A DNA stretch of 64,000 bases from a virus. Both the position numbers and the translations under genes were made by a program. Location: positions 1-64,000 of IMG/VR virus record IMGVR_UViG_3300030085_002431. One strand, 5' to 3'. Within the stretch, counting starts at the first letter, position 1; each line of letters opens with the position of its first letter. A model generated the notes under the pieces. The model saw only the letters and a program-made list of their open reading frames with translations. It was not told the DNA's origin and ran no database searches. Below, in pieces: positions 40,125 to 61,911 of the stretch.

Positions 40125-43100
40125 ATGGCTCTCTTTCAATACAACCAAAACAGCATAGTTCCGTTTAGTAGTATTGATTATGGATTTATTAGTGAAACAC
40201 ATACAACATCGGAAGACGAAGGAGATTTAGCAGTAGTTGCTCAGACTACTATTGCTCCAGATGATATTGTCTCCACATATAGTGGTAGTCTTAACATCGT
40301 AACTATTGCCAATACTGGCACTGGTGTTGGAGAGTATGGTGGATTTAATGTAGGAAGACATATTAAATTTACTGGAACAGGTACAAGGTCATTTAGTTTT
40401 GCATTTGATACGAGTAATCGTGAAGAGATAACATTCTCAGTTATTCGTGGTAATGATTCAAATGGTGGTGAACTTACTGATAGTGGTGAAGACCTTTTAT
40501 TTGAATATTCAACTAATGGTGGAAGCACTTGGACTGGAACTCAGACTTTAGTTGCATATAATGATACTACATTTGATACTTTAAATGATGTTACTGTAAC
40601 ACTACCTACAGCAGCAAGAGTATCTAATGCACAGTTTAGAATTAGACAAGCAAGTAATAGTGGTTCTAATTATGACCAATGGGGTGTAACTGCGGTTACT
40701 ATTGGTGGTGAGATACTTACTACTGAAGATTATGGATTCTTAACACCTAATAGTGGTCCTGCGAATCCATACGGTAGACTTAAGATTGTTACAGAGTTTG
40801 CAAACGAAAGACTTGCAAGAACAAGTGTCGGTGGATTTGGATTCCTCCTTCATGGAGATACAAGAATTTTCGTCTTGCCGATTCACGTCGGTTCTGGTTA
40901 TCTCCGACCTGTTGGTCGTGTTGTGGACAGAAGGACAGCCAGACAACTTGGATCTGGCTCCTTCTCAGCCTTCATTGGTTCTGCAGAGGTAAGAAGCAAT
41001 GCAGAGGAAAGTAGAGGTCTATTCAGAATTAGTGGCTCTGCCACAGATAAGCATTTAGAAAATTACGTTGGTGTTGGTAAGCTCAAATTCGCACCAACTA
41101 ATCGTCAACAACCAGGATTCCCAGATTCTTCTGCTGAAGTTAAATTCTCACCAGCAACGAGACCTGCACAGGGACTATTCCCAATCAGGGGTGAGGCTAA
41201 TGTTAATGTTCAGTATCATCAGACGGTTGAAGGTATATTACCTATCGTCAGTGGATCTGCACAAGCAGATAGAGTTGCATATGATTATAACGAATCTTCT
41301 GTAGTCAATGTAGAGACCATTGATTATGGTTTAGTTACTGATGTAACTGCTGACCAGAAGATTAGTGATTATGCTAACGTACAAATTAGTACATTAGCAA
41401 ATGAAGTAGTTGCCAACTTTGGTGAGCATCCAAATTCAGAGAATTACGGCAGTATTTCTCTTGATCCAGAGCAGTCTATTAACACTGTTGGATATAATCA
41501 TATTGATTATGGTTCTATTGCCGATGATGAAAATAGATTCCCATTCGGTAAGTTCCAGTTTGAAGATGAGGGTGACCCAAGATTTGAGTCTGCCAGAATT
41601 GGTATTAGAGTTAGACCTGTTACACCTGGTCCAACATTTAGACTTGCTGGTGAAGCAGGTGTCTTTACTCTACCAATTCACTTTGGTGAAGGATTTACCA
41701 GACTTGGTGGTACTGCAACCACAAGAATTAGAGCAGTCTACTATGGTTCTGGTACATTCTCCAAGTTTGGTGGATCTGCAGAATCTACAGGTGTTGCAGA
41801 AAGAAGAACTGTTCTCTTCAATGTTAAGGGTGATGCACACGCAGTTGTTCGTTTCGTATATATTGGTTCTGGTACACTATTCTCAATTGTCAGCAAGTCT
41901 GAGTCTACAGCAATTGTAGAAAAATCTTCTGCACTATTCAAGTTTACTGGTGCTGGTGTCGAGAAGAATACCGAAGCATATTCAGGAAAAGGTTCTCTCT
42001 TTGGATTTGTATCCAGTTCCGAATCGAAAGTTGTTCAGAGCACTTCCTCTGGACTGTTCAAGTTTACTGGTTCTGGTGTCGAGAAGAATACAGAGAACTA
42101 CGTTGGTCAAGGTTCACTATTCGCAGTTGTCAGCAAAACAGAATCCACAGTTGTTCAGAGCACTGCACAGGCACTGTTCAGATTTACTGGTGCAATTACA
42201 AACGAGCATGTCAGATACCATCAGTTTGGTACTGGTTCACTCTTTGGTCTTTCAAGTACTTCTTATGCAGAGAAGGTTGCATACGATTACAACGAAGATT
42301 CGATTGTCAATGTAGAGCATGAAAATTATGGATTTATTACTGATGCGACTGCTGACCAGAAGATTAGTGATTATGCTAATGAGCAGATTAGCACCTATGC
42401 AAATGAGGTAGTCTTTAACTTTGGTCAGCATCCAAATTCTGAAGACTTTGGTCACATCTCTATTGACCCAGAGCAATCTATTCATACTCATGGTTATAAC
42501 CATGTTGATTATGGATTCATTAATACCACTAATAGATTCCCATTTGGTGGATTTACCTTCGACGATGGCAGTGTTACCTCTGCAACTTCCAAGTTCCAGG
42601 TCAGACTACCTGTTCAAGGTCCTGTATTCCAGGTTAAAGGTGCTGCTGATGTTTATGTACTTCCAGTACATATTGGTGGTGGAGTTACCAGACTTGGTGG
42701 AAATGCCAGAATCAGAATCAGAGCAGTCTACTATGGATCTGGTACTGCATTCTCCTTCGTCAGTGGTGCGGAAGTTACTTGTTCTGTTCCACCAACAGAG
42801 GCACCACTTCTCGACTTCAATGGTACTGCAAGAGAGAGATTTGGAAAGGGCAATTACGATGGCACTGGCACATTCTCTGCATTTACTGGTGCTGCAGAAT
42901 CTACTGTTATCAACAGTGCAGCATCGGGTCTCTTCAAGTTTGTCGGTACTGCTACAGAGAAGAATACCGAAAATTATGTTGGAAATGGTTCTCTCTTTGG
43001 ATTTGTTACAAAGACAGAATCTACTGTTATCAACAGTGCAGCATCTGGACTCTTCAAATTCCTTGGTGGAGCAGTCGAGAAGAACACCGAAAATTATGTT

Positions 43101-46022
43101 GGTTCTGGTACTCTATTTGGATTCGACAGTTCTACAGAAGCAACAGAAGTCACCAGCAAAGCAGACGGTCTCTTCAAGATTTCTGGAGCAGCAACAGACA
43201 TACAAGTTGTATTCAGTCATCGTGGTTCTGGTTCACTCTTCGGAATTGTTGGTCATGCCGAGGCAGTCACATTTGATTATAACTGTCATTCCTCAATTGT
43301 TAATATTGGGGCAGATAATTATGGATTCATCACTGAATCTATATCTGACCAGACAATTTCCGATTATGCTAATGAGCAGATTAGCACCTATGCAAATGAG
43401 GTAGTTTCTGACTTTGGTATTGATCAAAGAACTGAGTCCTTTGGTCATATCTCTATTGACCCTGAACAGTCTATCAATACTCATGGTTATAACCATGAAA
43501 ATTATGGACTTATTACTGAACCAGAAGGTGGTAATAAGTTCCCATGTGTCCACATCCATATTGGTGGAGAAAGACTTACAGAATCCAGAGCACGAGGTTA
43601 TGCTGGTTCTGGTACATTCTCTGCATTCATTGGTGCTGCAGAAGTTGTTGCTCAAACCGACGATACCTTTGGACTATTCAAAGTTCATGGTTCTGCTGGT
43701 GTTGTTGCTTCCCTATCCCATGTTGGTTCTGGTGAAATCAATATTGGTGACTCTGGAATTGATAAGTTTGTTAAGGTCCAGTTCTCCCCACCAACCACTG
43801 GTGTTCTATTCAAGTTCTCTGGTGGACTGGATGTCAGTGGTGTCAAGGAGAGACCATCCGACCTCAAGGCAACATTTGTGGAAGTTGGACATGCAAAACT
43901 CCGCATTGCTGGAGATGCATTTACTACCTTCCATCTTGGACATATTGGAAGTGGTCAATTCGATATCAATGGCAATGCTATCGAGAAGCATACCGAAGCA
44001 TACCTTGGTTCTGGTTCTCTCTTCGCATTCACTGGTGGAGCAGAAAGTCTCACTGTCGATCTTCCAGAATTTGCAACTCTATTCAGATTTGCAGGCAACG
44101 GTATCGAGAAGAATACCGAAAATTATGTTGGTCGTGGTGCTCTGTTTGGATTCGTTTCCAAGACAGAATCTACAACTTCTGCGGAACAACCAAAAGTACT
44201 CTTCAATATCGAAGGTGCTTCTGTCAACAAAATCCTATTCCACTATCCTGGTTCTGGTACATTCTCCAAGTTTGGTGGTGCGGCAGAAGCAAGAGCAGTT
44301 GTCAAGAAAGCAGGTGGTCTGTTCACATTCAGTGGCAACGCACCAGAATCTATCACTCCTGCACCAGAAATTGGTTCTGGTTCTCTATTCACATTTGTTG
44401 GAAAGACAGAAGCATTTGCTGCAAGCGACGACTTTGCACCACCACTATTCAAGATTGGTGGAGATGCAATCATTGGATTCTCTCTTGGTATTATTGGTCG
44501 TGGTGGACTCGATGTTCTTCAGAAAGTCACCAAACTCGACGTTGAAGGCAAAAACAGATTTGTCGGTGCTCAAGAAAGAAGAGCAGTCAACAATCCTGCT
44601 TCTGTACTATTCAGCATCGACGGAAACGTCAAAATCTTCTTTGTCTTCCAAGAAGTTGGTGGTGGATTCACCAGAATTGGTGGAGAAGCATTCACCGAAG
44701 TTACACCTAGACATACTGGTCGTGGTAAGACTTCTCTACATGGTGATGTCACCATGTCTGCTTCCCTATCTCATATTGGATCGGGAACAATCTTCGGATT
44801 TATTGGTGGAGCAGAATCTCGTGCAATAGACCTACCACCACAAAAGGGACTACTCAGATTTGCTGGTACTTCATCAGAAGCATTCCAACGTGGACCAGAA
44901 ATTGGTACTGCTTCTCTACAAATCAAGTCTTCCGACGTATTTGTCAGATTCAAACTCAGTCATATTTCAGATGGTTCCAGAATCCATGTCGATGGAGATG
45001 GAGCAGAAGCAAGAGTCAGACTCTACGAAGGTTCTGGTACACTCTTCGGATTCAGTGGTGCAACAGAATCTCGCACAATCGATCTTCCTCCACAGATTCC
45101 AACACTCTTCGAGTTCAGTGGAAACTCTGGAGAAAGAGAAACCAATGCACATCAAGGTACTGGTTCACTCTTCGGATTCGATTCTGCGACAGAAGTCAGA
45201 ACTGTTTCACCAGAACTTTCTGGTCTCTTCAAGGTTCAGGGTACTGGTGCGGAAGCAAAAACCAAGGTATTTACTGGTTCTGGTACATTCGACCTCAACA
45301 CCAAGACCGATGGTCTCGATGTTTCTGGCAAGCAAGTTTATATCAGTGCTCCAGAAAGAACAACTGTCAATCCACCAGAAGAGACTCAAGTATTCTCCTT
45401 CAATGGTGCCGCAGTTGCAAAAGAACTCAGGTCTCACGCAGGAAAGGGTTCACTCTTCGGATTTACAGGAGCAGCAGAATCCAGAGCAGTTGCACCAGAT
45501 TCTACGGGACTCTTCAAAGTTCAGGGTTCTGGAGAAGAATCCAGAAGTAGAATTTACTCTGGAACAGGAAGAGTATTTGGATTTACTGGTGGAGCAGAAG
45601 CAACTGCTGTTACAGAAAACGTACCAGGTTCTCTCTTCAAATTTACTGGTACTGTTACTGTTATATTTGAAAGAGCACCATTTATTGGTTCTGGTACACT
45701 CTTTGGATTCAGTGGGGCAACAGAAACTACAGCAGTTGCACCACCAGTTGCAACACTCTTCGAGTTCAATGGAAGTGGTGCGGAATCCAGAACAAGAACA
45801 TACCAAGGTTCTGGTACACTTGTCGCATTCAAGTCCGCAACTATTTCCAGACGTGTACCATACAATGCTACACAAGGACTTTTCAAACTTGCTGGAGCAC
45901 TCAAAGAATCTTTTGTTCCTTCTGGATACGTTGGTACGACTGGGGTTCAGTTCATCGGAGCATCTGCAGATAGACGAATTGAATTTGAATCACCGAAACC
46001 AACTCAGATATACATCGTTTAA
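40125..46022 (+). CDS. Giant repetitive adhesin-like protein, 1,965 aa
   Basis: Residues about 45-195 look like a jelly-roll of reelin/carbohydrate-binding type (DLLFEYSTNGGSTWTGTQTL, ARVSNAQFRIRQASNSGS). The remainder is built from two nested repeats. The short unit of about 40 residues has the pattern 'GSGSLFGF-x5-ES-x8-GLFKF-x-G-x-x-x-EKNTENYVG' and recurs dozens of times. A long unit of about 330 residues recurs three times, each beginning with YDYN and 'NYGFIT-DQKISDYANEQIS-YANEVV' (about residues 385, 720 and 1051). No catalytic motif, signal or membrane helix is seen. It is probably a long, elastic, virion surface fibre or adhesin. The start follows GAGAGAGG by 11 bases, within the hairpin described for the leader. 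C-ending codons increase towards the 3' half. Confidence 0.75.
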   Translation: MALFQYNQNSIVPFSSIDYGFISETHTTSEDEGDLAVVAQTTIAPDDIVSTYSGSLNIVTIANTGTGVGEYGGFNVGRHIKFTGTGTRSFSFAFDTSNREEITFSVIRGNDSNGGELTDSGEDLLFEYSTNGGSTWTGTQTLVAYNDTTFDTLNDVTVTLPTAARVSNAQFRIRQASNSGSNYDQWGVTAVTIGGEILTTEDYGFLTPNSGPANPYGRLKIVTEFANERLARTSVGGFGFLLHGDTRIFVLPIHVGSGYLRPVGRVVDRRTARQLGSGSFSAFIGSAEVRSNAEESRGLFRISGSATDKHLENYVGVGKLKFAPTNRQQPGFPDSSAEVKFSPATRPAQGLFPIRGEANVNVQYHQTVEGILPIVSGSAQADRVAYDYNESSVVNVETIDYGLVTDVTADQKISDYANVQISTLANEVVANFGEHPNSENYGSISLDPEQSINTVGYNHIDYGSIADDENRFPFGKFQFEDEGDPRFESARIGIRVRPVTPGPTFRLAGEAGVFTLPIHFGEGFTRLGGTATTRIRAVYYGSGTFSKFGGSAESTGVAERRTVLFNVKGDAHAVVRFVYIGSGTLFSIVSKSESTAIVEKSSALFKFTGAGVEKNTEAYSGKGSLFGFVSSSESKVVQSTSSGLFKFTGSGVEKNTENYVGQGSLFAVVSKTESTVVQSTAQALFRFTGAITNEHVRYHQFGTGSLFGLSSTSYAEKVAYDYNEDSIVNVEHENYGFITDATADQKISDYANEQISTYANEVVFNFGQHPNSEDFGHISIDPEQSIHTHGYNHVDYGFINTTNRFPFGGFTFDDGSVTSATSKFQVRLPVQGPVFQVKGAADVYVLPVHIGGGVTRLGGNARIRIRAVYYGSGTAFSFVSGAEVTCSVPPTEAPLLDFNGTARERFGKGNYDGTGTFSAFTGAAESTVINSAASGLFKFVGTATEKNTENYVGNGSLFGFVTKTESTVINSAASGLFKFLGGAVEKNTENYVGSGTLFGFDSSTEATEVTSKADGLFKISGAATDIQVVFSHRGSGSLFGIVGHAEAVTFDYNCHSSIVNIGADNYGFITESISDQTISDYANEQISTYANEVVSDFGIDQRTESFGHISIDPEQSINTHGYNHENYGLITEPEGGNKFPCVHIHIGGERLTESRARGYAGSGTFSAFIGAAEVVAQTDDTFGLFKVHGSAGVVASLSHVGSGEINIGDSGIDKFVKVQFSPPTTGVLFKFSGGLDVSGVKERPSDLKATFVEVGHAKLRIAGDAFTTFHLGHIGSGQFDINGNAIEKHTEAYLGSGSLFAFTGGAESLTVDLPEFATLFRFAGNGIEKNTENYVGRGALFGFVSKTESTTSAEQPKVLFNIEGASVNKILFHYPGSGTFSKFGGAAEARAVVKKAGGLFTFSGNAPESITPAPEIGSGSLFTFVGKTEAFAASDDFAPPLFKIGGDAIIGFSLGIIGRGGLDVLQKVTKLDVEGKNRFVGAQERRAVNNPASVLFSIDGNVKIFFVFQEVGGGFTRIGGEAFTEVTPRHTGRGKTSLHGDVTMSASLSHIGSGTIFGFIGGAESRAIDLPPQKGLLRFAGTSSEAFQRGPEIGTASLQIKSSDVFVRFKLSHISDGSRIHVDGDGAEARVRLYEGSGTLFGFSGATESRTIDLPPQIPTLFEFSGNSGERETNAHQGTGSLFGFDSATEVRTVSPELSGLFKVQGTGAEAKTKVFTGSGTFDLNTKTDGLDVSGKQVYISAPERTTVNPPEETQVFSFNGAAVAKELRSHAGKGSLFGFTGAAESRAVAPDSTGLFKVQGSGEESRSRIYSGTGRVFGFTGGAEATAVTENVPGSLFKFTGTVTVIFERAPFIGSGTLFGFSGATETTAVAPPVATLFEFNGSGAESRTRTYQGSGTLVAFKSATISRRVPYNATQGLFKLAGALKESFVPSGYVGTTGVQFIGASADRRIEFESPKPTQIYIV
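41278..43510 (+). repeat. Three approximately 1-kb direct repeats inside the repetitive adhesin gene
   Basis: Three units start near 41278, 42271 and 43264, about 993 bases apart. Between the second and third, a 44-base stretch is identical (42369-42412 and 43362-43405). Smaller near-identical blocks encoding EKNTENYVG recur at about 42080, 42957, 43077 and 44107. The DNA-level identity points to recent duplication or ongoing recombination. Confidence 0.75.
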
Positions 46023-46056: not shown

Positions 46057-46506
46057 ATGGCAAATACTAAACGTGTTCAGATCCGTAAGGGTTCTGAGCC
46101 CGAACATCAGGCTTTTACTGGTGCTCTGGCAGAAATCACTTACGATACTACTAAAAAGTCCATCAGAATGCATGATGGAACAACTTTGGGTGGTTTTGAC
46201 GTACAAAAATCTAGGTACGATTTTTTAAATGGAGCAACCACTCTCGTCACCAATGTTAAGTACTTTGCCGACACCGTAAACGGAGCATACTCCGTTACCT
46301 TGCCTACCTTTAAGGCAATTGGTGACACTATTATTATAGTTGATGCCGAGGCATATTGGGATATAAATAATCTCACGGTGCTAACTCAAAATAATGAAAC
46401 ATTTAAGGATTATACAGGACTAATTGAATCCCCTTTGGTGTGTGACGTTGCTGGTGCGGCAATAGAACTTATTTGGGAAGGCAGTTACTGGAGATTAATC
46501 GCATGA
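46057..46506 (+). CDS. Small fibre/tropism-determinant-like protein, 149 aa
   Basis: The first 55 residues (TKRVQIRKGSEPEHQAFTGA, then LAEITYDTTKKSIRMHDGTT and GG) match the N-terminal attachment domain found in major-tropism-determinant-like and many phage fibre proteins: 'RxGT/S-x-x-E-x-x-x-F-x-G-x-x-G/A-E-I-x-x-D-x-x-x-x-x-x-(V/R)-(H/G)-DG'. The remaining 90 residues are a short beta domain with 'GDTIIIVDAEAYWDINNLTV' and end in IELIWEGSYWRLIA, a common tail-fibre ending. Its stop overlaps the next start (ATGA). It probably forms a short fibre or an adaptor for the following proteins. Confidence 0.7.
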   Translation: MANTKRVQIRKGSEPEHQAFTGALAEITYDTTKKSIRMHDGTTLGGFDVQKSRYDFLNGATTLVTNVKYFADTVNGAYSVTLPTFKAIGDTIIIVDAEAYWDINNLTVLTQNNETFKDYTGLIESPLVCDVAGAAIELIWEGSYWRLIA

Positions 46507-46901: not shown

Positions 46902-49900
46902 ATGGCAGACTTTAGACTTGGAAGACTAAAATTCAACTGGAGAGGTGACTGGGTAGCAGGAACCGCTTACGTCATCGATGACATCGTAAAGTTTGGTGCA
47001 AATACTTACGTCTGTACCACCAATCATACTTCCGTCACTGATGAAACTACCTGGTATACCACTGACCTAACAAAGTGGTCACTCCACACTGAAGGTATAA
47101 GAGATCGTGGCACTTGGTCAAGTGGTGTTTTTTACAAAATCAATGACCTTGTTACCTATGGAAATACTTCCTATCGTGTAACAACCGCATTTACCTCAAC
47201 AGCACCATTCTCAACAACTTATCTTGTTGAGTATCTCAGAGGATTTGAGTATGAAGATTCTTGGAATAGTTCAACTGAGTATCAGCAAGGTGATGTTGTA
47301 AACTATGGTGGTTATTCATACATTGCTACCAGCATTAATACAAATAAACCACCATCAGATTATCTCTCAGCAGATTGGGATGTAATTACAACAGGTTTTG
47401 ACGTAGTTGGTGCTTATAGTACTACTACAAACTACAAACCAGGTGATGTTGTTCAACGTGGTGGTTATGCTTACGTTGCAATCACAACTTCAATAAATGT
47501 AGAACCAACTCAAACTGGAAGTTGGGACCTTATTGTTAAGGGTATTGATTGGAAAGGTGCTTTCAGCACATCTACCACTTATCAATTGGGTGACGCAGTA
47601 AGTAGAAATAGTAATTCTTATATTAGTGTTGCATCAACTAACACTGGTAATGACCCAGCAACTGATGCTACTGGTGAATACTGGAATCCTCTAACTCAGG
47701 GTTCTGAAACCAATGTCATGACCACTGGTGGTGACATCATTTATCAGTCTGGTGCTGGTCCTACAAGATTACCAGTTGGTGCTGGTGGTTCAGTTCTTAC
47801 TGTTTCTAGTGCTGGATATCCACAATGGGAATCAAATAATGTAACTGATCCTGTTTATTATGTTGCAGAAGAGGGTAGTGATACCAATACTGGTGAAAAT
47901 ATTTCAAATGCATTTGCATCACTAGGTAAAGCACTATCGGTTGCAACTGGAAATGCAACAATTTATGTAAAAGCAGGTGATTACAACGAGACACTACCAC
48001 TAGTAGTGCCTTCTTCTGTAACTGTTGTTGGTGATAACATCAGAACAACAAAAATTAAAGCAGCTAGTGGAAGTGGAAACCACTGGGATATTGGATTAAA
48101 TATCGCAATTACTGATATTACTTTTGGTTCAGTTATTACCTTCTCAAATGGTGCTAGAGGAACATATATTGATTCCGATGCCCATGATAAAAATATTGAG
48201 ATTATCCGTAATATCAATTATCCAGCACCTTCACCATCAACAACAATAACCCACGTTGATAACGTACCATATAATACTAACGTTGTTACTGTAACAACAG
48301 CAGCAAATAGAACAAATGCACAATCCAAGATGTTCTTGGTTAGTGATAAGACAATGCTTAAAGACCTCCAGATGGAAGGTCTAACTGGATATCAAGTAGC
48401 AGGTACTGCATATTCGGCATCTGGTTCTATTAGTGGAACTACTCTAACTTCATCAAATCTAATTTCGGATTTGATTGGAACAACAGTTACTGGTTCTGGT
48501 GTTTCTGCAGCAACTAAAATTGTTAATGTTCTCAATTCAACCACTGCAGAAGTAAGTGTTTCCCAGACCGTTGGTTCTACTACACTTACATTTACTGCAC
48601 CTCCTCAGGACATTAATAATGCAACAGTTAGGGGTATCTTTGTTTCATTGAACCCTTCTACACCAATCACTAAGTCTCCTTACATCTCACAGTGTTCGGC
48701 ATTCTCAACTGCTGGCATGGGTGCGAAAGTTGATGGAAGAGTCCATAGAGCATTCCCACCAGGTAGTTCAACTCCTTCTAATAAGTCAATTGTTTTTGAC
48801 TCATTCACCAACATTCACGATGAGGGTGTTTCTTTCTGGGTTACTAACAATGGTGCTGCAGAATTCGTTTCTTGCTTCAGTTACTATGCTCATATTTCTT
48901 ATGCAGCAACTCGTGGTGGAAGAATCCGTTCACTCGCAGGTAACTCTTCTTGGGGAACTTATGGACTTGTAAGTTCTGGTTACAACGCAGATGAAGCTCC
49001 AGTAAATGGAGTTGTTGAAGGTCTTCAACTTAAGTTTGCTGCTTCTACAGTTACTGGTACAGGATTTGTTGAAGGTGGTAGAATTATTGGTAGTACTTCA
49101 GGTGCTCAAGGACATATTAATTCCTCACAATCTGAAAAACTAATCTATTCATTGATTTCTGCTGGACCTCTTGGTGTTGGTACTGGATTTGCAATGGGTG
49201 AAACCATTACTGCATCTAACGGAACAACAGCAACACTTCTTTCTAATACTGATGCTAACACTGGTATTAATGGATTTACATTCCCAATGTCTGGATTGCC
49301 ATCTACTTTAGAAGAAGGTGGTAGTGTTGAATTCATTACTGGTTCTGGTAATGGTGGTATTAATAATCAAACAGTTACTGGTGCTGACCAATTCACTTAT
49401 GTTGTTTCAAATGTAAGTTACAACGCACCAGATGGTAGAGGGGATTTAGCAGTTACTAGAGGAGCATTGGGTTCTGTTGCTGCTGGTCACACTGGTGGTA
49501 CAACATTCATCACTTCATATCCAGAAACTGGTACTACAGAAACACTATTGACTGCTGCTGCACCAAGTGATACAACAATTTTCGTTTCTAGTTCTTCTGG
49601 ATTCGTACAAAATGGATTTGCAAAAGTTGGTGATGAACTAATGCAAGTCACTAATATTCTTTCTAGTACTTCACTTGAAGTTACTAGAGCTGCACAAGGT
49701 TCTGGTTCTGCTGGTTCTTATAATTCAGGTGCTCCTGTTGTTTCTATTGGTCAATCTGTAGCAGTTTCTTCTGAGTTGTTTAAGGATACTGTAAGTGGTG
49801 ATACAACTCTTCGTGTAAAACCAACTACTGGATTTACAACATCAATGTACATCAAGATTGATTCTGAGTTTATTGATGTTAACTCAGTAACTGCAGATAG

Positions 49901-50432
49901 TCTTGGTCAATCTATCGTTGTTCTTGCTGAAGAAAAAGCAGCAAAGGCATATGATGGACAAGCAGTTAAGATTAGATTCCTGTATTCACAGGGAAGATTC
50001 ACAGGTCACGACTTCTTACAAGTTGGTACTGGTGGAACTTCAACAACAAATTGGCCTGGTATTCCTACACAGGATCCAGTACAAACACAGGAAGTTGTTG
50101 AAGATTTCCCAGGTCGTGTTTTCTACGTATCTGCTGACTCTAACGGTAACTTCCGTGTTGGTAAGTACTTTAAGGTTAATCAGGCAACTGGTTCTGCAAC
50201 CTTGAATGCTTCCGCATTCGACCTATCTGGTCTGACCTCCTTGAGACTTGGTTCAATTGGTGCTCAGTTGGGTGCTCAAATTAATGAGTTCTCAACAGAT
50301 ACTACACTTTCTCAGAACAGTAATGAGAAGGTTCCTACTCAGGCAGCAGTTAAGGCATACATCGACAATGCTGACGCATCTACCAAGAAGACCGCACAGA
50401 GTGAGGGTTACTTCTTCGGTAATAGCCTCTGA
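46902..50432 (+). CDS. Tail fibre with carbohydrate-binding-like repeats and beta-helix, 1,176 aa
   Basis: Residues about 14-260 contain five repeats of 'W/Y-x-x-x-x-x-Y-x-x-G/D-D-x-V-x-x-x-x-x-x-Y' (WVAGTAYVIDDIVKFGANTY, SSTEYQQGDVVNYGGYSYIA, TTNYKPGDVVQRGGYAYVAI). This is the layout of small CBM5/12-like chitin- or sugar-binding modules. From about residue 320 a pectate-lyase-like right-handed beta-helix begins (YYVAEEGSDTNTGENISNAF, ATIYVKAGDYNETLPLVVPS), running to about residue 760. It is followed by GxGY-free beta domains and a helical C-terminal tip (VPTQAAVKAYIDNADASTKK). No lyase catalytic residues can be assigned. It is probably a host-glycan-binding fibre. Confidence 0.75.
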   Translation: MADFRLGRLKFNWRGDWVAGTAYVIDDIVKFGANTYVCTTNHTSVTDETTWYTTDLTKWSLHTEGIRDRGTWSSGVFYKINDLVTYGNTSYRVTTAFTSTAPFSTTYLVEYLRGFEYEDSWNSSTEYQQGDVVNYGGYSYIATSINTNKPPSDYLSADWDVITTGFDVVGAYSTTTNYKPGDVVQRGGYAYVAITTSINVEPTQTGSWDLIVKGIDWKGAFSTSTTYQLGDAVSRNSNSYISVASTNTGNDPATDATGEYWNPLTQGSETNVMTTGGDIIYQSGAGPTRLPVGAGGSVLTVSSAGYPQWESNNVTDPVYYVAEEGSDTNTGENISNAFASLGKALSVATGNATIYVKAGDYNETLPLVVPSSVTVVGDNIRTTKIKAASGSGNHWDIGLNIAITDITFGSVITFSNGARGTYIDSDAHDKNIEIIRNINYPAPSPSTTITHVDNVPYNTNVVTVTTAANRTNAQSKMFLVSDKTMLKDLQMEGLTGYQVAGTAYSASGSISGTTLTSSNLISDLIGTTVTGSGVSAATKIVNVLNSTTAEVSVSQTVGSTTLTFTAPPQDINNATVRGIFVSLNPSTPITKSPYISQCSAFSTAGMGAKVDGRVHRAFPPGSSTPSNKSIVFDSFTNIHDEGVSFWVTNNGAAEFVSCFSYYAHISYAATRGGRIRSLAGNSSWGTYGLVSSGYNADEAPVNGVVEGLQLKFAASTVTGTGFVEGGRIIGSTSGAQGHINSSQSEKLIYSLISAGPLGVGTGFAMGETITASNGTTATLLSNTDANTGINGFTFPMSGLPSTLEEGGSVEFITGSGNGGINNQTVTGADQFTYVVSNVSYNAPDGRGDLAVTRGALGSVAAGHTGGTTFITSYPETGTTETLLTAAAPSDTTIFVSSSSGFVQNGFAKVGDELMQVTNILSSTSLEVTRAAQGSGSAGSYNSGAPVVSIGQSVAVSSELFKDTVSGDTTLRVKPTTGFTTSMYIKIDSEFIDVNSVTADSLGQSIVVLAEEKAAKAYDGQAVKIRFLYSQGRFTGHDFLQVGTGGTSTTNWPGIPTQDPVQTQEVVEDFPGRVFYVSADSNGNFRVGKYFKVNQATGSATLNASAFDLSGLTSLRLGSIGAQLGAQINEFSTDTTLSQNSNEKVPTQAAVKAYIDNADASTKKTAQSEGYFFGNSL

Positions 50433-50482: not shown

Positions 50483-50803
50483 ATGGCTTCTGGAATTTTA
50501 GGACAATCCGCCCCTTCGGCAACTACTTTGACAACTGTTTATACAGTACCAAGTAGCACTCATTCTGTTGCGAACATTAACGTTCTTAATCGTAGTGCAT
50601 CAGCACCTGTAGATGTGAGAATTGCTTTATCTGCAACTGGAACACCTACATCAGCAGAGTACATCGAATATGATGTTTCTATTCCTGCTAAGGGTGTTAT
50701 GGAAAGAACTGCAATTTCATTGCAAGCAGGAAAGAACATTGTCGTTTATTGCTCTACTGGAGACACTTCTATCAGTGTCTACGGATTAGAGCAATCTGCT
50801 TGA
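50483..50803 (+). CDS. Small conserved structural protein, 106 aa
   Basis: A 106-residue beta protein (ASGILGQSAPSATTLTTVYT, VANINVLNRSASAPVDVRIA, PTSAEYIEYDVSIPAKGVME). The same domain appears twice, in diverged form, at the start of the truncated fibre at 62717 (SAYDDVEYLEYDRYI and SSEDYIEYDVEIGPN). The conserved core is '(V)NRSxxPVxVRIALS-x-x-x-x-EYIEYD-x-x-(I)'. It is probably a small virion protein or fibre-attachment module that also occurs fused to larger fibres. GGAAAG about 12 bases upstream could be its ribosome binding site. The strong ribosome binding site of the next gene follows immediately. Confidence 0.7.
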   Translation: MASGILGQSAPSATTLTTVYTVPSSTHSVANINVLNRSASAPVDVRIALSATGTPTSAEYIEYDVSIPAKGVMERTAISLQAGKNIVVYCSTGDTSISVYGLEQSA

Positions 50804-50815
50804 TAGGAGGGACCA

Positions 50816-51085
50816 ATGGGAAGATTCGTAGGTTTATCCATCAATAAAGGTGGAGGCGGTGGTGGTAGGCCACTTAATGAGGAGTTTACAAGAGCAACGG
50901 GTATCACTACCGACTCTAGTAACAATGTTACAGCAGTTACATTAGGTGATGTTTCCTATACTAATGTTGGTTATAGCACTGTTGGACTAATCACAGGATT
51001 CACTGAAAATGTCGGTGGTGTCACTAAGGTTTATCAACTGACTTATAATAGTGATAACTATGTTACAAATATTACGGAGGTATAA
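50816..51085 (+). CDS. Small protein with N-terminal glycine tract, 89 aa
   Basis: An 89-residue protein starting MGRFVGLSIN, then KGGGGGGR. The rest is a beta-type domain with FTRATGITTDSSNNVTAVTL and KVYQLTYNSDNYVTNITEV, a 'T-x-x-x-Y-x-x-(D)-x-x-(V)-x-x-I' ending common in phage fibre tips. It has a strong ribosome binding site (GGAGGG, six bases before ATG) and sits between the 106-residue gene and the first cysteine-rich protein, with gaps of 12 and 3 bases. It is probably part of the same adhesin assembly. The function is unknown. Confidence 0.6.
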   Translation: MGRFVGLSINKGGGGGGRPLNEEFTRATGITTDSSNNVTAVTLGDVSYTNVGYSTVGLITGFTENVGGVTKVYQLTYNSDNYVTNITEV

Positions 51086-51088
51086 TTC

Positions 51089-52147
51089 GTGGCAGACGTA
51101 TTACTCTATAACTCATTAAACGATTCAAATAATGAGTATGCTAAAAGGTTGGATGACATTGATACCAACATGGCAGCAGAACAAGCTCGTGTTACTGCGG
51201 CTCAAACAAAATTAGATGTTGCTAATGCACAACTTGCTTCTGGTGGTGTAACTGGTAACTTCAGTCTTTGGTGTCTAATTCCAGAAGAGCCAGCAGATGG
51301 TTCTACATGGACTAGTGGAACAAGTTGTGGTTCTCTTAAGGTTTGTGATCAAACTGGATACTACCGTTGTGGTGCATCCTGTTCCTGGACAGTTCCAGCT
51401 GGTGCATCTTGTGCCAGATTCCAACTTTGGGGTGCTGGTGCTCCATCAGGAAGTAGTTGCTGTTGCGGTTTCTCTCCAATTGGTGGCAATGGTGCATATG
51501 CTTCTGTCATTATGTCAGTTACACCTGGAGACACATACACTCTATGTGCTGGTTGTGCATATTGTTGCTATGCAACAAGAAGTACATCAAATCAGGATGG
51601 ATGTCCTTCATACGTTCAGGGAAATGGACTTACTAACTTCTGTGCAGAAGGTGGTGAAGGAAATATCCAATGTGAAATGAAGACAAGGATGCAGGAAGGT
51701 AACCTCAATTCAGATTACTGTATGTACTTAGGTGCATGTATCTGTAATGGTGGTTCCGATACTTGCTATACGGGTGGACATACTTGCCAGATTGGTTGTA
51801 ACGATAACCAATGGTCTAATAAGTATGGATTCTTCCGTTCATGCAAAACATATTATGGAACATCAACTAGTGGAACTGTTTTTGGTATTAATGGTATGTT
51901 TAGTGCTATTTCTGCTGGTCACCGTGCATGTGTATATTATTGGTCAGCACCAGTTTATGGTTACCCAACTAACTCATGCTGCACAGGAGTATGGACTAGT
52001 GGTTGTGGTGGATGCGAACGTTCCGCACAGAGAGGATATCGTCAGATTCCAGGAGCAGGTGGATGGGGTAGCATGACAGACGGTGGTTGTAATACCGTTT
52101 GTGGTGATGCTGGAAGAATGGGCATGGTCTGTGTCACTTGGAAGTGA
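51089..52147 (+). CDS. Cysteine-rich adhesin-like protein A, 352 aa
   Basis: The start is GTG, preceded by GGAGG eight bases upstream; no in-frame ATG fits as well. Residues 1-50 are a charged helix, probably coiled coil. The rest is a glycine/cysteine-rich domain with about 31 cysteines. The segment CSWTVPAGASCARFQLWGAG aligns with Gly_rich_2-like fibre domains ('WTVPAGVTxVxVxLWGAGGG'), but with many Gly positions replaced by Cys, including a CCC and two CC pairs (SSCCCG, CAGCAYCC). The end, 'CGDAGRMGMVCVTWK', is shared with its paralogue at 52898. Disulfide cross-linking or metal binding is possible. It is probably a tip adhesin. Confidence 0.75.
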   Translation: MADVLLYNSLNDSNNEYAKRLDDIDTNMAAEQARVTAAQTKLDVANAQLASGGVTGNFSLWCLIPEEPADGSTWTSGTSCGSLKVCDQTGYYRCGASCSWTVPAGASCARFQLWGAGAPSGSSCCCGFSPIGGNGAYASVIMSVTPGDTYTLCAGCAYCCYATRSTSNQDGCPSYVQGNGLTNFCAEGGEGNIQCEMKTRMQEGNLNSDYCMYLGACICNGGSDTCYTGGHTCQIGCNDNQWSNKYGFFRSCKTYYGTSTSGTVFGINGMFSAISAGHRACVYYWSAPVYGYPTNSCCTGVWTSGCGGCERSAQRGYRQIPGAGGWGSMTDGGCNTVCGDAGRMGMVCVTWK

Positions 52148-52163
52148 TTTAATAGATATAGTT

Positions 52164-52171
52164 TATAAATA
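52164..52171 (+). promoter_or_regulatory. Late promoter (TATAAATA, perfect)
   Basis: A perfect T4 late octamer lies 43 bases before the ATG at 52215, in the 67-base gap after the first cysteine-rich gene. Confidence 0.7.
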
Positions 52172-52214
52172 ATCATACACAGAAGAATTTAGTTCAACAC
52201 AGGGGAAACTAACA

Positions 52215-52898
52215 ATGATAACGGAAAGTTTAACATATGCTGTTCCAGATGTTGCTTTTGTAGCAGGCATTTCTGGCAGTGTTACTCAAGACTTCCCATA
52301 TAATGGCCCAGAAAGCTTTTATGTGGAAATTGATGATGAGGGAGAAATCGTAAATATCGATGTTCCCTCAACACATAAAAATGCAATAGAGGTTACCTGG
52401 GCAGATAACCCAGAAATCTGTGCATTAGTTGGTCATTATTTTGTTGAAGATTGGAATGTAACACCTACTTTCGTCTCTGCTGATCTTGATGATGGATTTA
52501 CTCTTCCATCTGGTACTCCAACTACTTATCAAAAGAGAACTAATTATGAACTTGGTGACCTCTTCGAGGCCAAATATGATAGAGCAGCAGGAACCTGGTC
52601 AATGGAACAGATTGTCAAGCTAAAGGGTAGTCCTCTAATTGAAGAAGCAAAGAGAAGAAAGAGATATGTCAAGCAATATACTGACATGTTTGACTTTGCT
52701 GGTGATACTGGAACAGCAATTACTGCATTCCAAACAGCAATAGATAACTATCTTGCTGCTGCAGTATCAGTCCCTGTGTGGAACTATCTTCCTGAGCATT
52801 TTGCTCCTTACTTTGCTGATATCCCTAAAGTTCCTGCTCTTGCAGCAGCAGCATTTAAAGAACTTCCTGCAGATGAATCATTGGAGGCACTTAGCTGA
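52215..52898 (+). CDS. Protein of unknown function between the cysteine-rich paralogues, 227 aa
   Basis: A 227-residue acidic protein. Its N-terminal half is beta-type (VEIDDEGEIVNIDVPSTHKN, ICALVGHYFVEDWNVTPTFV). The centre has a basic helix (SPLIEEAKRRKRYVKQYTDM) and the end is alanine-rich helical (VPALAAAAFKELPADESLE). It has only one cysteine, in sharp contrast to the genes on both sides. It has its own late promoter and overlaps the start of the second cysteine-rich gene by one base (TGATG), so the two are probably made together. It could be a chaperone or partner of the adhesins. No family is recognised. Confidence 0.6.
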   Translation: MITESLTYAVPDVAFVAGISGSVTQDFPYNGPESFYVEIDDEGEIVNIDVPSTHKNAIEVTWADNPEICALVGHYFVEDWNVTPTFVSADLDDGFTLPSGTPTTYQKRTNYELGDLFEAKYDRAAGTWSMEQIVKLKGSPLIEEAKRRKRYVKQYTDMFDFAGDTGTAITAFQTAIDNYLAAAVSVPVWNYLPEHFAPYFADIPKVPALAAAAFKELPADESLEALS

Positions 52899-53941
52899 TG
52901 GACGTATTAGCATATAGCGCATTTAATAGAAGGGCAGAACTTGATGCCCAAGTAACAGCTAAAGAGGTTCAACTAGAAGCTCTTAGGCAGTGTGTCAGAG
53001 ACATTGATGCCCAAGTAACATCTAGAGAGGCAGCAGCAAGCTGGTTATCGAGTGGTGAGTATTCAATGCTCTGCTGTCCTCATAAATTTTCAGATTATGA
53101 AACTTTAATTGAAAATTACGAACTTTCTACTGAAAATAATGGATTTAAAGTTTGTAATACACAATCTCAATTTAACTGTGGTAATAGCTGTACTTGGACA
53201 GTTCCAGCTGGTGTAACTTGTGCCAGATTCCAACTTTGGGGTGCTGGTGGTGGTTCTGGATCTGGATGCTGCTGTGGTGGTTCACCATTTGGTTCATCTG
53301 CAGCATATGCAACAGTTTCTTTACCAGTCGTAGAAGGTTGTCAATATACAATTTGTTCTGGTTGTTCATATTGTTGCTTCCCCACTACTGGAACTTGTGG
53401 AAGACTTCCTGGTTGCCCATCCTACGTTCAGGGACACGGATTAACTAATTTCTGTGCAGATGGTGGTCAAGGAAGAATTGGAACCATGTTTGCAATGTAT
53501 GGTCACCGTTGCAGGTGCAGAATGCAGAACATTCAGTGTAATGATTCTGGTGGTTGTATCTGCAGTTTCGGTGCAGATTATTGCTTCGATAATTCCTGTG
53601 CATCTTGCGGTAAGATTGGATGCTTTATCCCTGGTGCTATGTACTTTGGTGCAGCACACTGTGGATCAGTTGTTAGGGGTGTCCGTGGCATGTGGCCTGA
53701 GATTTGCTACGATACAAACCACTACGGTTACGAAATGAGACCACCAATGTACGGTCTTCACTGCTGCCTCTGGTGTTTCCCTTATAGTAGTGGTTATTGC
53801 TGTGGTTGCGAGTGCTCAGCATCCCGTGGATGCCACCGATATCCAGGAATGGGTGGTTGGGCATCTCACACAATGAGTGGTGCTACTGGTATCTGTGGTG
53901 ATATGGGTAGAATGGGTATGGTTTGCATTACCTATTGCTGA
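52898..53941 (+). CDS. Cysteine-rich adhesin-like protein B, 347 aa
   Basis: A paralogue of the protein at 51089, and even richer in cysteine: about 40 of 347 residues. Residues 1-50 are helical with a duplicated 'LDAQVT/IDAQVT' motif. The core has CTWTVPAGVTCARFQLWGAG, then GSGCCCGGSPFG, CSGCSYCCFP and GCPSYVQGHGLTNFCADGGQ, each aligned with protein A. CRCRM, LHCCLWCF and GYCCGCECS add more clusters. The end, ICGDMGRMGMVCITYC, matches protein A except for the final Cys. It starts within the stop of the 227-residue gene. There is no signal peptide. Glycine-rich domains of this kind form phage fibre tips, so host recognition is the likely job. Confidence 0.75.
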   Translation: MDVLAYSAFNRRAELDAQVTAKEVQLEALRQCVRDIDAQVTSREAAASWLSSGEYSMLCCPHKFSDYETLIENYELSTENNGFKVCNTQSQFNCGNSCTWTVPAGVTCARFQLWGAGGGSGSGCCCGGSPFGSSAAYATVSLPVVEGCQYTICSGCSYCCFPTTGTCGRLPGCPSYVQGHGLTNFCADGGQGRIGTMFAMYGHRCRCRMQNIQCNDSGGCICSFGADYCFDNSCASCGKIGCFIPGAMYFGAAHCGSVVRGVRGMWPEICYDTNHYGYEMRPPMYGLHCCLWCFPYSSGYCCGCECSASRGCHRYPGMGGWASHTMSGATGICGDMGRMGMVCITYC

Positions 53942-60124: not shown

Positions 60125-60519
60125 AAATATCTTTTGTCAATGGTTGTTTTGATGTATTACATCCAGGACACGTTGAACTTTTAAATTATGCTAGTTCTTT
60201 TGGTGATTACTTAATTGTTGCTATTGACTCAGATAGAAAAGTGGCAGAGATGAAAGGTCCAGACAGACCGATATTCTCTCAATCTGATAGGGCATATATG
60301 CTAAAAGAAATAAGATGTGTTGATGTAGTACATATTTTTGATACTAGACAAGAACTAGAGTCTTTGCTAGATTCATTGAGACCTGATACAATGGTCGTAG
60401 GTTCAGACTGGAAAGGAAAAGAAGTAGTAGGTTCACAGTATGCCAAATCAGTCAAATTCTTCGACAGAATCGGAGACTACTCAACAACAAAAACAATTCA
60501 AGGTTCTTCTTATCGGTGA
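60121..60519 (+). CDS. rfaE2: RfaE2-type nucleotidyltransferase (heptose-1-phosphate adenylyltransferase-like), 132 aa
   Basis: A small cytidylyltransferase-fold protein with the GCFDVLHPGH motif (H14-x2-H17), VAIDSDRKV, and the RfaE2-like middle: KGPDRPIFSQSDRAYML, then CVDVVHIFD. LRPDTMVVGSDW and VVGSQYAK follow, and it ends in YSTTKTIQ. In HldE-type proteins this domain converts heptose-1-phosphate plus ATP to ADP-heptose. TagD-type glycerol-3-phosphate cytidylyltransferases have the same fold and length. RfaE2 is preferred because of 'RPI-x4-DRA', the VVGS block and the neighbouring kinase and HldD genes. It overlaps copy 3 by four bases and the kinase by 80 bases in another frame. Confidence 0.75.
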   Translation: MKISFVNGCFDVLHPGHVELLNYASSFGDYLIVAIDSDRKVAEMKGPDRPIFSQSDRAYMLKEIRCVDVVHIFDTRQELESLLDSLRPDTMVVGSDWKGKEVVGSQYAKSVKFFDRIGDYSTTKTIQGSSYR

Positions 60520-61237
60520 TAGTTGCGAAGACGAGTACATTTATGGTACTTGTAAACGTATAAGTCCAGAAGCACCAGTTCCTATTATGGACTATTCCAG
60601 ACTGGAAACAAAATCTGGAATGGCAGGTAACGTATGTTTGAACTTACAGTCATTTGAAATGGACATAACGTTCTTAACTAACTCTGAGAAATTGGTTAAG
60701 ACACGATTTATTGATGAAAAGTCAAATCAGCAAATTCTTAGAGTTGATAATGAAGAGACTGTAAAACCGTTATTACTTCCAATTAGCACCGAAGGTTTTG
60801 ATGCAGTTGTAATTTCAGATTATAACAAAGGATATCTAAGTTATTCTAAAATTGAAGAAATAGTTTCTGGTTCCACATGCCCAGTGTTTATTGACAGTAA
60901 AAAAAGATTTTTACCTAACAAAGAAAATTGTTTTGTAAAAATAAATGACTTAGAGTATAGTCAATTGGATGAAAAGTGTCATATTGATAACTTAATTGTC
61001 ACTAAGGGTGCTGAGGGATGTTATTATAGAAATACTTTGTATCCAGCACAGAAAGTAAATGTTTATGATGTTGTCGGTGCAGGAGATACCTTTTTGGCAG
61101 CACTAGTTTTTAGTTATCTTGCTAGAGGTGATATGAGTGAATCAATTCGTTTTGCAAATAAAGCAGCAGCAGTTGTTGTTGGTCAACCAGGTACATATGT
61201 TTTACAGGAGGAAGATATAAATGAGATATGTAGTTGA
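60440..61237 (+). CDS. rfaE1: RfaE1/HldE-type PfkB sugar kinase, 265 aa
   Basis: It matches the kinase domain of HldE, which phosphorylates heptose-7-phosphate at C1. The N-terminal block KVLLIGDSCEDEYIYGTCKR, then ISPEAPVPI, corresponds to 'VLVVGDVMLD-x-Y-x-x-G-x-x-x-R-I-SPEAPVPV'. SDYNKGYLS and the PfkB signature DVVGAGDTFLAAL (catalytic D216) follow. It is shorter than the usual domain of about 310 residues. The only reasonable start (60440) lies 80 bases inside the RfaE2 gene, so residues 1-26 are encoded in an overlapping frame. In bacterial HldE the kinase is N-terminal and fused; here the order is reversed and the domains are separate. The HAD gene starts within its 3' end. Confidence 0.8.
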   Translation: MPNQSNSSTESETTQQQKQFKVLLIGDSCEDEYIYGTCKRISPEAPVPIMDYSRLETKSGMAGNVCLNLQSFEMDITFLTNSEKLVKTRFIDEKSNQQILRVDNEETVKPLLLPISTEGFDAVVISDYNKGYLSYSKIEEIVSGSTCPVFIDSKKRFLPNKENCFVKINDLEYSQLDEKCHIDNLIVTKGAEGCYYRNTLYPAQKVNVYDVVGAGDTFLAALVFSYLARGDMSESIRFANKAAAVVVGQPGTYVLQEEDINEICS

Positions 61238-61550
61238 TATTGATGCAACCATTTGTACCCCAGGTACATGTGAAGCATGTAGATATGAAGGTTCCACACC
61301 AATTCAAGATAGGATTGATAAAATAAATAAGTTGTATGATGATGGGCATATCATCAAATACTTTACTGCCCGAGGCATGGGAAGGTATAATGATGATGCG
61401 GAAAAGGCACGGGAAAAATTTTACGGACTAACCAAAATGCAATTAGATATTTGGGGATGTAAGTATCATGAACTTATTCTCGGAAAACCATCAGCAGACT
61501 ATTACATAGATGACAAAGCTGTAAATTCAGATGACTTCTTCAAGACCTAG
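61221..61550 (+). CDS. EcbF/BcbF-type HAD phosphatase, 109 aa
   Basis: A small HAD-fold protein. Motif I is VVDIDATIC (D6-x-D8-x-T10). Motif II lies in KYFTARGMGR. Motifs III/IV are in LGKPSADYYIDDKAVN. The sequence between, DRIDKINKLYDDGHIIKYFT and then QLDIWGCKYHEL, is characteristic of the capsule-biosynthesis phosphatases EcbF/BcbF. An AGGAGG nine bases before the ATG, inside the kinase gene, makes this start firm. In a heptose pathway a HAD enzyme (GmhB) removes the C7 phosphate of heptose bisphosphate. This protein could fill that step, but it is not a close match to GmhB. It overlaps the cupin gene by 20 bases. Confidence 0.7.
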   Translation: MRYVVDIDATICTPGTCEACRYEGSTPIQDRIDKINKLYDDGHIIKYFTARGMGRYNDDAEKAREKFYGLTKMQLDIWGCKYHELILGKPSADYYIDDKAVNSDDFFKT

Positions 61551-61911
61551 AGCAGGACAGGACATCAAATTCGTACCTAAGGGGTGGGGATTTGAAAAAT
61601 GGATTGTAAACTGTGAGCAATACTGCGGAAAACTTTTGTATATTGCTAAGGGAAAAAAGTGTTCATGGCACTACCACAATAAAAAAGATGAAGTTTTTTA
61701 TGTTCAAAGTGGTAAGATTAAAATTAAGTATGGTTGGTCAGACAATCAAGAATTAGGTTCCATAGCAATTTTGGAACGTGGTGATAAGTTTCACGTTCCA
61801 ATTGGTATGAGACATCAGATGTATGGTATGGAAGACACCGAACTGTTTGAGTTCAGTACAGAGCACTTTGACTCTGATAGTATTCGTGTCATCCCAGGAG
61901 ATACTCTTTGA
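61531..61911 (+). CDS. Cupin-domain sugar-pathway protein, 126 aa
   Basis: A single cupin domain with the metal-binding set H47-x-H49-x4-E54 (CSWHYHNKKDEVFYV) and H95 (VPIGMRHQMYG). The block WGFEKWIVNCEQYCGKLLYI and the KGKKCSWHYH motif resemble cupins linked to mannose-6-phosphate isomerase or nucleotide-sugar clusters, including phage ones. It may isomerise or epimerise a sugar phosphate or bind a sugar nucleotide; no specific reaction can be named. Its start lies within the HAD gene. Its 3' end overlaps the end of hldD on the other strand by 23 bases, and no terminator lies between. Confidence 0.75.
   Translation: MTSSRPRAGQDIKFVPKGWGFEKWIVNCEQYCGKLLYIAKGKKCSWHYHNKKDEVFYVQSGKIKIKYGWSDNQELGSIAILERGDKFHVPIGMRHQMYGMEDTELFEFSTEHFDSDSIRVIPGDTL

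Follow-up and report, generated by a model that had tools for sequence, protein, structure and literature searches.

Two genes at 51089–53941 of the window, by which we mean the whole 64,000-nucleotide stretch of viral DNA analysed (positions 1–64,000 of IMG/VR record IMGVR_UViG_3300030085_002431), encode cysteine-rich proteins, here called A and B, that are very probably fibre-tip adhesins. They represent a known fibre-tip fold in a variant form that is rich in cysteine, and not a polyglycine tip. We give a probability of about 0.6 to the whole explanation in which A and B form paired distal tips that are assembled by a chaperone and contain a cysteine scaffold braced by disulfides. A content of about 10% cysteine is surprising, given that these proteins are assembled while the cytoplasm is reducing, and poses the question of whether these residues serve as disulfides, as metal ligands or as reactive thiols. 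What is new is the occurrence of ancient paralogue sets in a fixed order, the location of cysteines in a conserved scaffold and the apparent replacement of polyglycine by cysteine.

The source record (250,613 bases) contains matches to psbA/psbD-type genes, which encode the D1/D2 photosystem proteins, and since it carries such genes we take the virus to be a cyanophage, of the T4-like kind. The gene order around 51089–53941 is the same as in Prochlorococcus phage P-SSM2. We note that the Photo_RC (psbD-like) match at 163609–164465 of the record, outside the window, is divided between two open reading frames separated by about 36 bases. The D2 gene may be split or contain an insert here, or the break may be a frameshift from sequencing.

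An earlier note on this DNA described the region as two paralogous genes. Both are present, but they are separated by a third gene that the note did not mention, so that the region consists of three plus-strand genes in the order A, a gene with a single cysteine, and B. The features referred to below are as follows.

46902–50432, plus strand: large tail fibre, 1176 residues (PHROG_9851 tail fiber, 1376.9 bits)
50483–50803, plus strand: tail-fibre-related protein, 106 residues (PHROG_11338 tail fiber, E 7.6e-10)
50816–51085, plus strand: small glycine-rich open reading frame, 89 residues, directly upstream of A
51089–52147, plus strand: protein A, 352 residues, 31 Cys, GTG start after GGAGG; probable cysteine-rich fibre-tip adhesin, first paralogue
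52164–52171, plus strand: TATAAATA, T4-type late promoter sequence about 44 bases 5' of the chaperone gene; weak
52215–52898, plus strand: middle gene, 227 residues, 1 Cys; putative diverged tail-fibre assembly chaperone
52898–53941, plus strand: protein B, 347 residues, 40 Cys, ATG start; probable cysteine-rich fibre-tip adhesin, second paralogue
53189–53776, plus strand: conserved cysteine scaffold of B (residues 98–293)

The 1176-residue tail fibre closes the fibre module ahead of the tip genes. It contains four matches to the carbohydrate-binding family CBM_5_12. The small protein encoded before it (46057–46506) matches Mtd_N, the N-terminal domain of the major tropism determinant (E 7.4e-11), and a 1965-residue repetitive tail protein at 40125–46022 has a Reelin_subrepeat-B match near its N-terminus (E 8.5e-15). 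The 106-residue gene is found at this place in many loci of the cysteine-rich family. The 89-residue open reading frame is a possible connector; it has no family match in Pfam or PHROG, and P-SSM2 (PSSM2_303) and other loci have a gene of similar size at this position. The sequence NATAAATA has been given as the cyanophage late promoter (PMC2984593). The late promoter motif occurs five times in the window, compared with 5.9 expected, which is chance level, and the copy 5' of the chaperone gene is suggestive by its position alone.

Fold and fibre-tip assignment

An AlphaFold2 model was calculated for B alone from an alignment of 68 sequences, and the fold of A is assigned by homology. The model (pLDDT 85.9, pTM 0.84) consists of three N-terminal helices (residues 3–34, 42–59 and 65–72) followed by β-structure. 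Its best match among solved structures is the tail fibre gp24 of cyanophage Pam3 (Foldseek E 2.9e-6, probability 1.00), with Z scores of 13.4 and 13.0 against PDB entries 7ypx and 7yfw, respectively, compared with 2–3 for unrelated chains. The next matches are the tail tip of Bxb1 (Z 12.4) and the glycine-rich domains of ALK/LTK (Z ~8). Searches of solved structures by sequence, using both the single protein and a profile, returned nothing meaningful. Against Pfam Gly_rich_2 (PF21722) B scores 18.7 bits, which is below the cut-off of 24.3 bits, while the related protein S-SSM7_114 lies above it with 24.9 bits. These relatives in fold are characterised, and those that we checked are either poor in cysteine or not reported to contain such an excess.

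The product of the middle gene is predicted (AlphaFold2, pLDDT 85.7) to contain an N-terminal β-sandwich followed by C-terminal helices, an arrangement that Pam3 gp25 also has. Its N-terminal 84 columns, and these only, align with the chaperones of S-SSM7-type phages (hhalign probability 97.3, E 1.8e-11). The S-SSM7-type counterparts score above the cut-off of Pfam Phage_tail_APC (PF16778), with 38.4 bits for S-SSM7_118 and 42.6 bits for the protein of Sf-FS3, whereas the product itself matches no Pfam family, PF16778 included. A PF16778 search of the whole record gave no match, as was also the case for the control genomes. The structural resemblance of the model to the Pam3 gp25 chain (7ypx_a) is weak (Z 4.3 over 125 residues, rank 36), and a Foldseek search with the model gave no significant match. 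Recognisable copies of the gene are also present in S-CAM1 and S-CAM3. We call the product a putative diverged fibre chaperone, the assignment of its C-terminal part being tentative.

The earlier note read A and B as glycine-rich adhesins from a 'WTVPAG...LWGAGGG' core, and the fold shared with Pam3, the weak Gly_rich_2 score, the location of the genes as the last of the tail-fibre operon and the neighbouring chaperone all agree with this reading. In particular, the adhesin reading is well supported by the presence of a putative chaperone gene between A and B. The tip genes close the fibre module in the window and in P-SSM2, S-SSM7, Sf-FS3, S-CAM1 and S-CAM3, and large fibre-sized genes lie upstream of them in the loci that were inspected. 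From these observations we infer the virion location of A and B, their trimeric state and their role in receptor binding. Cyanomyoviruses are without the T4 fibre genes g34, g35 and g37, and their analogues were still being sought at the time of a 2010 review (PMC2984593). In the cultured phages P-SSM2, S-SSM7, S-CAM1 and S-CAM3, genes of the A/B type are strong candidates to encode the tips that bind the host.

Distribution and paralogue sets

By tblastn, A and B are 45% and 40% identical, respectively, to proteins of P-SSM2/P-SSM5, and matches were also obtained to the single-cell marine virus records AG-345-F15 and AG-345-E02. Relatives, always with 6–12% Cys, are present on more than 100 IMG/VR contigs, in addition to those in P-SSM2, S-SSM7, Sf-FS3, S-CAM1 and S-CAM3. 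Complete members among 278 unique relatives contain 6.1–12.3% Cys (median 10.2%). Dozens of IMG/VR loci carry the pair, and about 80 carry instead a shorter version in triplet form, which is known from S-SSM7, S-SSM6a and Sf-FS3. A third and more distant set, in S-CAM1 and S-CAM3, consists of three cysteine-rich genes (278–329 residues, 24–36 Cys) and a chaperone gene. The pair and the S-SSM7-type triplet are catalogued as PHROG_35878 and PHROG_4205, respectively, both of unknown function, and A and B match the PHROG_35878 profile over nearly their full length (E 4.9e-90 and 2.1e-84). At the level of sequence no characterised family of known function was matched, as the families found have no assigned function. 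A literature search on cysteine-rich cyanophage fibres, partial in its coverage, returned nothing on these proteins, and the cysteine-rich fibre-tip variant is apparently undescribed before.

Two database entries deserve mention. The annotation S-SSM7_117 (9386–9715) overlaps largely with the cysteine-rich gene SSSM7_116 on the same strand and looks like a spurious call. Among reference genomes, one relative lies on a contig of a Red Sea 'Actinomycetota' metagenome-assembled genome (PBPX01000055.1); this contig is probably of viral origin and wrongly binned.

The genes occur in a fixed order, either A–chaperone–B or three copies and a chaperone. In a tree of 149 proteins the first and second genes of the pair fall mainly into separate position-specific clades, with A in the clade longA, and the first, second and third genes of the triplet behave likewise. 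The least number of label changes on this tree is 12, compared with a mean of 89 for shuffled labels. On this evidence A and B are ancient paralogues that are always retained together, in accord with their description as paralogous in the earlier note. A–A and B–B identities are correlated (rho 0.81), in part through the phylogeny that the phages have in common. The constancy of gene order and copy number suggests that the copies cooperate, and from their joint retention as old paralogues A and B probably act as a pair, either as two tips or as one mixed tip. A single hetero-oligomeric tip (A with B, or three different subunits in the triplet phages) that is assembled in reduced form inside the cell by one common chaperone, becomes locked by disulfides only after lysis and thus matures in oxic water is an unlikely form of this arrangement. 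If true, such an adhesin would mature by redox chemistry and rely on cystine where others rely on a polyglycine lattice.

Conservation and role of the cysteines

The cysteine counts given in the earlier note, 31 of 352 residues in A (8.8%) and 40 of 347 in B (11.5%), are exact. The remaining 29 genes in the window together contain 108 Cys in 19,485 residues (0.55%), and the binomial tail for the excess is ~1e-26 in A and ~1e-38 in B. The other tail and fibre genes of the window have 0–1.4% Cys; compared with these, the genes of the sugar/heptose cluster at 60440–61911 are also raised, at 2.4–3.7%. The note also described clusters at conserved positions, and indeed the CCC at 124–126, the CxxCxxCC at 153/156/159/160 and further pairs are shared. 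In an alignment of 74 long relatives cysteine reaches at least 90% in 11 columns (residues 94, 98, 125, 126, 153, 156, 159, 160, 186, 222 and 229 of B), and among 159 non-redundant relatives from both subfamilies seven columns are at least 96% Cys (98, 153, 160, 186, 222, 229 and 293).

The best-kept residues in every band of identity are cysteine and glycine. In pairs at 25–60% identity 54–88% of cysteines are retained, which is equal to or above the value for glycine and far above the average, and in close pairs nearly all cysteines are kept at dN/dS values of 0.30–0.67. Judged from these alignments, the cysteines are under selection. An artefact of composition was considered and rejected in view of the residue-level conservation and dN/dS. 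Within B the variable segments 188–219 and 230–292 (26–29% identity) are sparse in cysteine (5–9%), while the conserved segments are mostly dense (8–24%). This distribution indicates that the cysteines are part of a frame that carries variable loops. Many cysteines shift position between lineages.

On the reading that we favour, A and B would be the distal host-binding tips of the tail fibre of a T4-like cyanophage. Each would comprise an N-terminal helical stalk, a TNF-like β-domain and a tip of extended loops, presumably as a trimer, and the gene between them would encode the protein that folds and assembles them, as does gp25 in Pam3. The loops of ordinary tips pack as a polyglycine lattice; here conserved scaffold cysteines would replace part of the glycine and fix the variable receptor-facing loops, most likely through disulfides formed after lysis, once the virion has been released from the reducing interior of its host. 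The tips contain 10.4–10.7% Cys and 17–19% Gly, and glycine makes up 14.8% of A and 13.8% of B overall. Cysteine thus appears to take the place of much of the polyglycine that ordinary tips contain, which we read as cross-links sharing the job of the lattice. Provided that A and B are fibre-tip adhesins, their cysteines probably serve mainly as structural disulfides. There is a precedent for a virion with many disulfides in phage Milano (PMC10811340).

The assembly of the proteins in a reducing cytoplasm is a point against disulfides. The source record encodes a glutaredoxin; no thioredoxin was found in it. A search of the whole record for a sulfhydryl oxidase gave no match, and neither did the control genomes. 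The total number of cysteines is even in 27 of 56 relatives, which gives no support for complete intrachain pairing. No coupling was seen in the gains and losses of variable cysteines on the tree, with same-direction changes at 0.275 per pair compared with 0.288 expected, a result affected by alignment noise in the variable loops. Correlations between cysteine pairs were rejected as evidence of pairing, as the values are strong but confounded by ancestry.

Cytoplasmic assembly would favour thiolates over disulfides, and the same fibre tips could use their cysteines to bind zinc, copper, iron or a cluster, either in folding the tip or in presenting metal to the host. The spacings in CxxCxxCC (B 153/156/159/160) and CCC (124–126) resemble those of metal sites, and iron in phage fibres has been proposed previously (the Ferrojan horse). 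However, these motifs as such are not the universal part of the cysteine set, as C125, C156 and C159 are at least 95% conserved in long relatives but 0–6% in the short subfamily. Neither A nor B matches a metal-binding Pfam family or contains an HxH motif, and histidines are few (two in A and eight in B). We regard this role as unlikely. Still less probable is that the cysteines are reactive and form covalent bonds or exchange disulfides with the host surface, resulting in irreversible attachment or a redox trigger. Tail disulfides can gate infection in Milano (PMC10811340) and many cysteine positions vary by lineage, as exposed thiols could, but the conserved cysteines lie in scaffold segments outside the variable loops. 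Slightly weaker again is the suggestion that A and B are not virion proteins but surface or host-modifying proteins grouped with the sugar genes (carbamoyltransferase, heptose) that lie directly downstream in the window, P-SSM2, S-SSM7, S-CAM1 and S-CAM3: their presence in the virion is a prediction and we found no virion proteomics of P-SSM2 or S-SSM7 in the literature, but the fibre fold, the chaperone partner and the large fibre-sized genes upstream all argue against it.

Comparison with known systems

Comparison of the predicted tips with Pam3 gp24/gp25 (7ypx, 7yfw) indicates the same overall plan in a myocyanophage. Pam3 gp24 has a helical N-terminus, a TNF-like domain and a looped tip, and its likeness to ALK has been noted; receptor binding was placed at the distal loops, and the neighbouring gp25 is needed for the folding of gp24 (PMC9608196). 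The helical N-terminus, the TNF-like domain and the loop-built tip are predicted here as well, next to a putative two-domain chaperone. In contrast, the sequence identity is only ~14–16%. The gp24 tip contains 39% Gly with GGGGxGG motifs (PMC9608196), whereas tips of the long subfamily have ~17% Gly and ~10% Cys, and Pam3 has one fibre gene where there are two ordered paralogues here and three in relatives. Glycine-rich adhesins of the S16 gp38 type have a comparable fibre-tip architecture (PMC9608196). Syn9 gp38 also matches the fibre-tip fold structurally, but the whole protein contains 0.8% Cys and 22% Gly. The glycine-rich domain of ALK/LTK has a similar TNF-like and glycine-rich fold; it belongs to an animal receptor and no common function is implied.

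Milano offers a precedent for many disulfides in an assembled tail (PMC10811340). There the whole particle is enriched in cysteine (2.1% in structural proteins; PMC10811340), while here it is concentrated in two proteins at 9–12%; a particle-wide rise is absent, as the other tail genes of the window have 0–1.4% Cys.

Related systems also occur in other marine cyanophages. S-SSM7, S-SSM6a and Sf-FS3 (PHROG_4205), together with S-CAM1 and S-CAM3, share cysteine-rich tips of the WTVP/WGAGG type, the same chaperone family and a downstream carbamoyltransferase. They differ in having three tandem copies with partly different cysteine positions, and the stalk is shorter in the S-SSM7 type. The purpose of the cysteines can be tested in phages that are already in culture. 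The direct homologues of the genes described here are PSSM2_304, PSSM2_305 and PSSM2_306 of P-SSM2 (PHROG_35878), which are found in the same order, with 36 Cys in each of 304 and 306. They are annotated as 'hypothetical protein'; 304 and 306 are 45% and 40% identical to A and B, respectively, and differ from them by divergence alone.
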